Positions 20,143-21,300 of a stretch of DNA of 33,571 bases are shown in pieces. Below the pieces are notes generated by a model. It was given only the letters and a program-made list of their open reading frames with translations, was not told the DNA's origin and ran no database searches. The position numbers were made by a program, and so were the translations under genes. Each line of letters opens with the position of its first letter. Position 1 is the stretch's first letter. This DNA is from Candidatus Nitrosopumilus sp. (GTDB lineage Archaea; Thermoproteota; Nitrososphaeria; Nitrososphaerales; Nitrosopumilaceae), in the NCBI GenBank assembly GCA_014384555.1, contig JACNFR010000048.1, positions 1-33,571 on the forward strand, written 5' to 3'.

Positions 20143-20472
20143 TTATTTAATTGGGCTACCCAAGGGAACATCTTCAGTGACAGTCAACCAAAATGGTTTG
20201 TCATCAACATCAGCTGCCAACAACATCGCATTTGATTCTACACCTGCCATTTTTTTAGGTTCAAGATTTGCAAGGACAATCACAGTTTTTCCTACAATTT
20301 CTTCAGGTTGGAAATATTGTGCACCACCAATTATTACATCACGTTGATCATCATTACCCAAATCAATTGTACCTTTGATGATTCTTGATTTTCCTTCAAT
20401 AGGTTCAGTTGCAATAATTTTTGCAACTCTAATATCCAACTTTGCAAAGTCATCATAAGATACGGTAGACAT
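20143..20472 (-). CDS. Stand-alone tRNA-binding (MetRS C-terminal/beta-like, OB-fold) protein
   Basis: DFAKLDIRVAKIIATEPIEGKSRIIKGTIDLG...VIVLANLEPKKMAGVESNAMLLAA is the MetG C-terminal domain signature. Confidence 0.88.
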   Translation of the reverse strand: MSTVSYDDFAKLDIRVAKIIATEPIEGKSRIIKGTIDLGNDDQRDVIIGGAQYFQPEEIVGKTVIVLANLEPKKMAGVESNAMLLAADVDDKPFWLTVTEDVPLGSPIK

Positions 20473-20512: not shown

Positions 20513-20728
20513 TCATTGTAAATCTTTTTTGTTAATTCCACTAGTTTCAATTTCATATCTTAAGGCAGCTGGAATTTCCATATACTTTTTGTTAACTAGT
20601 TCAACAATCTGATCTTCAGGAACATCAACTTTTTTCAATAGTTTGCCACGTTGATGTGCATATGCATTTTTCCAAAAGCCTGCACCGTCCAAGGTTTCAA
20701 TTTTTGGCATGTATTTTGTTGGTTTCAT
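20513..20728 (-). CDS. Conserved-looking hypothetical protein (71 aa)
   Basis: Complete ORF MKPTKYMPKIETLDGAGFWKNAYAHQRGKLLKKVDVPEDQIVELVNKKYMEIPAALRYEIETSGINKKDLQ. Function unknown. Confidence 0.6.
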   Translation of the reverse strand: MKPTKYMPKIETLDGAGFWKNAYAHQRGKLLKKVDVPEDQIVELVNKKYMEIPAALRYEIETSGINKKDLQ

Positions 20729-20745: not shown

Positions 20746-20828
20746 TGGACTGTGACCGAAGAATGGCAAACGCCATTGGAACTGGAGTTAATGTTCCGGA
20801 TTTTAGGCATGTTACCGATCACAGTCTA
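20746..20828. other. Cloverleaf-like multi-stem structure (5'-UTR element of the minus-strand gene, or an sRNA)
   Basis: Closing stem 20746-20755/20819-20828 (8 bp perfect Watson-Crick plus flanking G-U and A-U). Internal hairpins AATGGC-AAAC-GCCATT (20762-20777), GGAAC-N10-GTTCC (20778-20797) and a short CGG/CCG arm (20797-20817). Confidence 0.45.
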
Positions 20829-20848
20829 CTTCAAACGCCGTAGGAATC

Positions 20849-20861
20849 TAATATATTTAAT
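20849..20861. promoter_or_regulatory. AT-rich TATA-like element, possible shared divergent promoter
   Basis: TAATATATTTAA lies ~25-30 bp upstream of the plus-strand ATG at 20884 and ~25 bp upstream of the minus-strand start of the structured element. Confidence 0.35.
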
Positions 20862-20883: not shown

Positions 20884-21300
20884 ATGGCTACAATACAGGT
20901 AGAGATAGAAATCAATGCAAGCATAGACAAAGTATGGGATATTGTCTCAGACATTGATAATGAGCCAAAGTTTTGGAAGGGAACAAAAGAAGTCAGAAAC
21001 ATCTCCAAAGAAGAAAACATCATCAAAAGAGAAGTCACAATAGCATTTAGAGATCAAAAATGCTTGCAAGAAGTCAAAATTTATCCCAAAGAAAAGATAG
21101 AGTCAAAATTTACCAAAGGAATCATTGACGGTGAAAAAATAGTTTCACTAGTCTCAAAAGATGAAAAAACCATACTTTCAACATATTGGGATATCAGATT
21201 AACTGGAATGATGGGTATGTTTACAGGCATGATCAAAAAACACATCAAAAGTGGAACAGAGCAGGCCATGCAAAGCATCAAAGAAGAAATTGAGAGATAG
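20884..21300 (+). CDS. SRPBCC/polyketide-cyclase-like (START-fold) protein
   Basis: MATIQVEIEINASIDKVWDIVSDIDNEPKFWKGTKEV is a typical SRPBCC N-terminus. The track start at 20752 lies inside the structured element and is rejected. Confidence 0.8.
   Translation: MATIQVEIEINASIDKVWDIVSDIDNEPKFWKGTKEVRNISKEENIIKREVTIAFRDQKCLQEVKIYPKEKIESKFTKGIIDGEKIVSLVSKDEKTILSTYWDIRLTGMMGMFTGMIKKHIKSGTEQAMQSIKEEIER

Follow-up and report, generated by a model that had tools for sequence, protein, structure and literature searches.

A new family of small structured RNA in the Nitrosopumilaceae, probably encoded by a free-standing single-copy gene

We propose that an element of about 80 nt on the minus strand of a Candidatus Nitrosopumilus sp. 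contig is probably a free-standing, single-copy gene for a small non-coding RNA that has its own dedicated promoter. The window, by which we mean the whole 33,571-nt stretch of DNA analysed, carries one copy of what is a new family of archaeal small structured RNA. Comparison among genomes shows a predicted fold, a strand, a promoter motif, a single copy per genome, and independence from any one neighbouring gene. The original prediction had read the locus as a cloverleaf-like RNA, either a leader of the adjoining 71-aa gene or a small RNA of the plus strand. From that interpretation the conserved and structured minus-strand RNA, the lack of a tRNA, the TATA-like element behind it and the absence of an Rfam match survive, and the cloverleaf, the dedicated leader and the plus-strand small RNA have been given up.

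The locus contains an inverted repeat far from chance expectation, which is the closing helix of a 79-nt minus-strand RNA. The helix GACTGTGA/TCACAGTC is present as first described, with eight contiguous Watson-Crick pairs, or ten with a U-G and a C-G, and the arms GGAAC...GTTCC and AATGGC-GTTT-GCCATT were both found in their expected place. Read on the minus strand from 20826 down to 20748, the letters are GACTGTGATCGGTAACATGCC TAAAATCC GGAAC ATTAACTCCA GTTCC AAT GGCGTTTGCC ATTCTTC GGTCACAGTC. The RNA and its parts, listed below with the neighboring features, rest on two covariance models, R1 (built from 14 sequences) and R2 (built from 50 distinct copies), and on A3, an alignment of 50 distinct copies made from sequence alone.

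20748 to 20826, minus strand: structured RNA of 79 nt (cmsearch with R1 and R2, and compensatory changes); numbered so that model position 1 is 20826 and position 79 is 20748
20817 to 20826, minus strand: 5' strand of P1, positions 1-10; both-side changes in 8 of 10 pairs, 11 compensatory events
20748 to 20757, minus strand: 3' strand of P1, positions 70-79, on the same basis
20806 to 20816, minus strand: 5' strand of P2, positions 11-15 and 17-21 with a bulge at 16; both-side changes in 6 of 10 pairs, 12 compensatory events
20765 to 20774, minus strand: 3' strand of P2, positions 53-62, on the same basis
20798 to 20805, minus strand: conserved internal loop UAAAAUCC, positions 22-29 (A3; shortened in g2 and g22)
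20793 to 20797, minus strand: 5' strand of P3, positions 30-34; both-side changes in 5 of 5 pairs, 8 compensatory events
20778 to 20782, minus strand: 3' strand of P3, positions 45-49, on the same basis
20784 to 20789, minus strand: apical-loop motif AACUCC, positions 38-43, invariant in all 50 distinct copies
20758 to 20764, minus strand: 7-nt 3'-side bulge AUUCUUC between P1 and P2, positions 63-69; A63, C66 and U67 invariant
20845 to 20860, minus strand: promoter core TTAAATATATTAGATT in the archaeal TATA region; matched exactly at one site in each of four genomes, at near-fixed spacing
20513 to 20728, minus strand: 71-aa gene, 19 nt downstream of the RNA; a neighbour, not an obligate partner
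20143 to 20472, minus strand: single-domain tRNA-binding gene (CsaA / MetG C-terminal-like), second downstream neighbour
20884 to 21300, plus strand: divergent SRPBCC (Polyketide_cyc2) gene, upstream neighbour

The 71-aa protein is itself conserved in many Nitrosopumilaceae and belongs to no Pfam or NCBIfam family.

The minus strand of the window copy folds at -28.6 kcal/mol (z = -5.1), a value that none of 200 shuffled sequences reached, compared with z = -2.9 for the plus strand. Across the family, the predicted fold is one long hairpin, or rod. Its three helices are P1 (10 bp), P2 (10 bp, interrupted by a single bulged base) and P3 (5 bp); a 7-nt bulge on the 3' side separates P1 from P2, an internal loop of 8 by 3 nt separates P2 from P3, and an apical loop of 10 nt closes the hairpin. 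When the rod is laid on A3, 93% of cells are paired, 19 of the 25 pairs have changed on both sides, and double-changed cells number 143 against 38 ± 5 in shuffles, a signal that is abolished by shifting the partners one to three columns. P2 (positions 11-21 with 53-62), for example, occurs as GGCA/TGCC, GGTA/TACC or GGTG/CGCC, and as CTGCC/GGCAG or ACGCC/GGCGT. Measured against a null in which substitutions were redistributed independently on a tree, the rod has undergone 31 compensatory branch events where about 2 are expected; the counts for P1, P2 and P3 (11, 12 and 8, with null means of 0.6, 1.0 and 0.4) were equalled in none of 1000 nulls. A strict R-scape-style test of individual pairs, also with a tree-based null, gave E <= 0.05 for one pair only, in P3, and is weak because many of the changes cluster on a few deep branches. 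The helix-level result, not the per-pair test, carries the covariation claim, and compensatory base-pair evolution at this level is what a structured non-coding RNA gene should display.

Compensatory changes do exist among relatives in the Nitrosopumilaceae, but they lie in the rod and not in two of the three arms of the cloverleaf that the original prediction had drawn. The two small arms contain 3 double-changed cells, no better than shuffles. Two of the three arms have no compensatory events where the long helix on the same bases has 12, and the cloverleaf is therefore not the conserved fold. We reject it on covariation even though energy minimization predicts it for the window copy, where the two structures are nearly equal in energy (-26.9 kcal/mol for the rod, -28.6 for the cloverleaf), and even though RNAalifold, given the 50 copies together, favors one of its two local arms. 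The rod is the more stable of the two in 37 of the 50 copies. A switch between rod and cloverleaf is possible, without evolutionary support.

The pattern of substitutions also bears on the idea that the structure is a by-product of a short conserved peptide, encoded by a plus-strand ORF or by the minus-strand upstream ORF ATGCCTAAAATCC... On the minus strand 23 of 50 copies do contain the start ATG-CCN-AAA-ATC-C. However, copies of 74, 77, 78, 79, 80, 81, 82, 83 and 85 nt exist and each frame is interrupted by stops in part of them, so coding is disfavored; the compensatory changes, moreover, fit base pairs and not codons. We regard a peptide as very improbable.

Several lines of evidence agree on the strand. 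Read on the minus strand, the paired columns of the alignment hold 81 G-U and 22 A-C cells, an excess that identifies the RNA strand as minus, since the reverse would be expected for the opposite strand. Promoter strand and fold energies likewise favor minus, so that the novel small RNA offered earlier as an alternative survives but its placement on the plus strand does not. The TATA-like element and the gap before the ATG of 20513-20728 are both present on the minus strand, the gap being 19 nt. Exact matches to TTAAATATATTAGATT occur once per genome, and only at the RNA, in G000, G098, G003 and G032; a fifth genome tested, from g19, has a diverged TATTAGA promoter. In most copies TATTAG starts 26-27 nt upstream of the RNA (about 27 in the window), the usual distance in g19 being 23. 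The promoter is retained in relocated copies (g3, g12), and the stretch that separates it from the RNA is variable in sequence. By the usual spacing between an archaeal TATA element and the start site, transcription would be expected to begin at about 20826, the first base of the RNA. Judged purely from sequence, a promoter of its own at near-fixed spacing is a second property that marks a structured non-coding RNA gene.

Possession of a promoter does not mean that the RNA is always transcribed by itself. Within the window no terminator-like site was seen after the RNA and no second promoter was evident before the 71-aa gene, making it likely that in Nitrosopumilus the two are co-transcribed. 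There the 71-aa gene is probably expressed from the same promoter, which would make the RNA the 5' end of a longer transcript, from which processing could release it.

The family is widespread in one clade and, in our searches, confined to it. Among relatives fetched by way of the 71-aa gene, 28 have a complete copy, each of 79 nt and nearly unchanged. Model R1, at a cutoff of E <= 0.01, matched 146 of 250 Nitrosopumilaceae genomes with E values down to 5e-27; one match (G038) was judged a chance hit, leaving about 145. In the matched genomes the RNA is single copy, with the exception of one in which two contig ends share the element. Model R2 found it in 11 genera of Nitrosopumilaceae, many of whose members are marine, and, in a search of 400 genomes from the class, nowhere outside the family. 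Two weak matches, L079 (E 1e-4) and L084 (E 0.05), were dropped as chance because their sequences do not fit and R2 did not recover them. A DNA-pattern scan of 84,980 species genomes matched 84 stretches, named as Nitrosopumilus, Nitrosarchaeum, Nitrosopelagicus, Cenarchaeum, Nitrosomaritimum or unresolved thaumarchaea; two of the 84 are labeled Nitrososphaeraceae and are probably mislabeled DNA from within the family. With R2 the RNA was not found in complete genomes of g9 and g17, which are other Nitrosopumilaceae genera, nor in g6, and in both g6 and g17 a close-up search around the 71-aa gene with filters off revealed no degenerate copy. One genome of the window's own genus (G170, 99% complete) has neither the RNA nor the csaA-like gene, through either an assembly gap or loss of the locus.

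A long terminal inverted repeat at a locus that differs between genera might also suggest the end of a repeat or mobile element. That reading is very improbable: each genome has one copy and no target-site duplications, promoter and RNA are conserved together, and the arms change in a compensatory way. No match to the RNA was found in viral contigs, and viral carriage was not found.

Comparison of neighborhoods separates the RNA from the genes beside it. Nitrosopumilus and its close genera share one arrangement: a divergent SRPBCC gene, the RNA, the 71-aa gene and the csaA-like gene. Elsewhere the csaA-like gene directly follows the RNA (g15, G208), a convergent methyltransferase-like gene ends 6 nt after it (g3), or the RNA lies at other loci (g12, g19), with an unrelated gene adjoining in g19. 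In the closed 2.045-Mb genome G001, it is flanked on one side by the divergent SRPBCC gene and on the other by a convergent TBP gene; that genome gave no match for either the 71-aa or the csaA-like protein. Conversely, the 71-aa gene is present without the RNA in g6 and g17, csaA-like genes occur without it in g6, g9, g16 and g17, and in G016 the SRPBCC, 71-aa and csaA-like genes stand together with no RNA between them. The conclusion is INDEPENDENCE from neighbours: each of the two, RNA and 71-aa gene, is found in places where the other is missing, and therefore neither needs the other. In a Nitrosopelagicus-like closed genome, a relocated copy (G019:C1:474872-474953) precedes the 16S rRNA gene (477691-479161) on the same strand, at a distance of about 2.7 kb.

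These arrangements weigh on the view that the RNA acts in cis, as a structured 5' leader of riboswitch-like or protein-bound type, to control co-transcribed genes, ancestrally a 71-aa/csaA-like operon. The Nitrosopumilus-type order recurs in g1, g4, g14, g18 and g22 where examined, many orthologues directly precede a co-directional gene, and the 13-20 nt that separate the RNA from the ATG of the 71-aa gene contain no visible promoter and, in the window, no terminator; the csaA-like gene directly after the RNA in g15 and G208 fits as well. Riboswitches and other structured leaders likewise precede an ORF behind a promoter, as this RNA does in Nitrosopumilus. However, a dedicated leader should consistently precede the genes it regulates, whereas this RNA is retained with a different gene downstream or none (G001, g3, g12 and g19), and the putative target genes persist without it. 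A leader is accordingly an unlikely though not negligible explanation in general, a leader role in Nitrosopumilus being conceivable, and the leader or riboswitch dedicated to the 71-aa gene that was first suggested does not fit the distribution. G001, which carries the RNA and lacks a gene for the adjoining tRNA-binding-domain protein, weakens the case for autoregulation by that protein. A free-standing RNA gene remains our preferred reading.

The RNA does not match a described class. In agreement with the original prediction, ARAGORN and the Rfam tRNA model give no tRNA at 20746-20828, and no Rfam 15 family matched at or above its gathering threshold; searches with the window copy and three divergent copies returned only chance matches far below gathering scores. 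Archaeal H/ACA guide RNAs resemble it in being single irregular hairpins of similar size, but by inspection it has no conserved ACA-type box after the basal stem, the 3' flanks being variable; its bulge is one-sided (0 nt on the left), so there is no two-sided guide pocket, and no kink-turn consensus or Rfam match was seen. A C/D box guide RNA was rejected, also by inspection, as there is no conserved CUGA and the GUGAUGG stretch is a varying part of P1/P2. Y RNA and YrlA share paired ends in one long stem and a pyrimidine-rich bulge, but the window's own genome (95% complete) has no TROVE (Ro60) protein, and again no Rfam match exists. The SRP and RNase P RNAs are likewise single-copy structured archaeal RNAs; both were found separately, SRP RNA elsewhere in G098, G119 and G019, and archaeal RNase P RNA (RF00373, 188 bits) at 966-1244 of the window. 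Full-text searches gave no description of the RNA, an earlier mention in the N. maritimus genome paper being possible, and the papers searched describe no regulatory or structural RNA common to the Nitrosopumilaceae beyond the standard set.

What evolution has kept in this RNA, beyond pairing, is unpaired. The apical loop keeps AACUCC, the internal loop (in nearly all copies) UAAAAUCC and the 3' bulge A-N-U/A-C-U (ANUCU); these conserved single-stranded stretches contain UCC or UCU. Stems that vary freely while three single-stranded surfaces are kept are as expected of loops read by a protein or a pairing partner, and we infer that the RNA acts in trans through them. In copies L074, L075 and L076, from g2/g22, the internal loop is cut to about 4 nt while P1, P2, P3 and AACUCC remain, a natural test of the role of that loop.

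One candidate mode of action is pairing of the UCC-containing loops with mRNAs in the manner of Yfr1 or archaeal sRNA162. The cyanobacterial Yfr1/Yfr10 small RNAs are also short and near-universal in their clade and keep a single-stranded UCC-type motif, of which UCCU is needed for target binding (PMC6778093). They have no homology to this RNA, however, which carries its motif in the loop of a roughly 25-bp hairpin and for which neither a target nor a partner protein was found. Our target scan took in the start regions of part of the genes, from 1.2 Mb of G119 and 0.8 Mb of G019. None of 655 orthologue pairs had GGAGTT in common close to the start codon (mean of permuted motifs, 1.0), and no loop complement was enriched clearly above permuted controls in those pairs. 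Nor did the rRNA region contain an antisense match of at least 8 bases to the internal loop or bulge, or anything else convincing. In the sense orientation, 16S rRNA (L247 of G119, L249 of G019) carries UAAAAUCC (GGGGUAAAAUCCUUU), the same 8-mer as the internal loop, near position 625; its occurrence in a 1.5-kb 16S has a chance of about 2% and may be mimicry or coincidence. The lack of shared mRNA sites and of a convincing rRNA match favors a trans-acting RNA with loops read by a partner, and that partner is somewhat more likely to be a protein than an mRNA. Within the free-standing reading, mRNA pairing is conceivable but doubtful. We tentatively suggest instead, with no great confidence, that this may be a clade-specific core RNA of the Nitrosopumilaceae that would serve as the scaffold of an RNP, its loops read by protein and without mRNA pairing.

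Nitrosopumilaceae include some of the most abundant ammonia oxidizers in the ocean. An RNA that 11 genera have retained in single copy behind a promoter of its own, even where it has moved or its neighbor genes have changed, likely meets some need of the cell. Given the covariance model, the fold and the coordinates, existing transcriptomes offer a direct test of it. If it does prove to be an RNP scaffold, it would represent a new functional class of archaeal stable RNA rather than another pairing small RNA.
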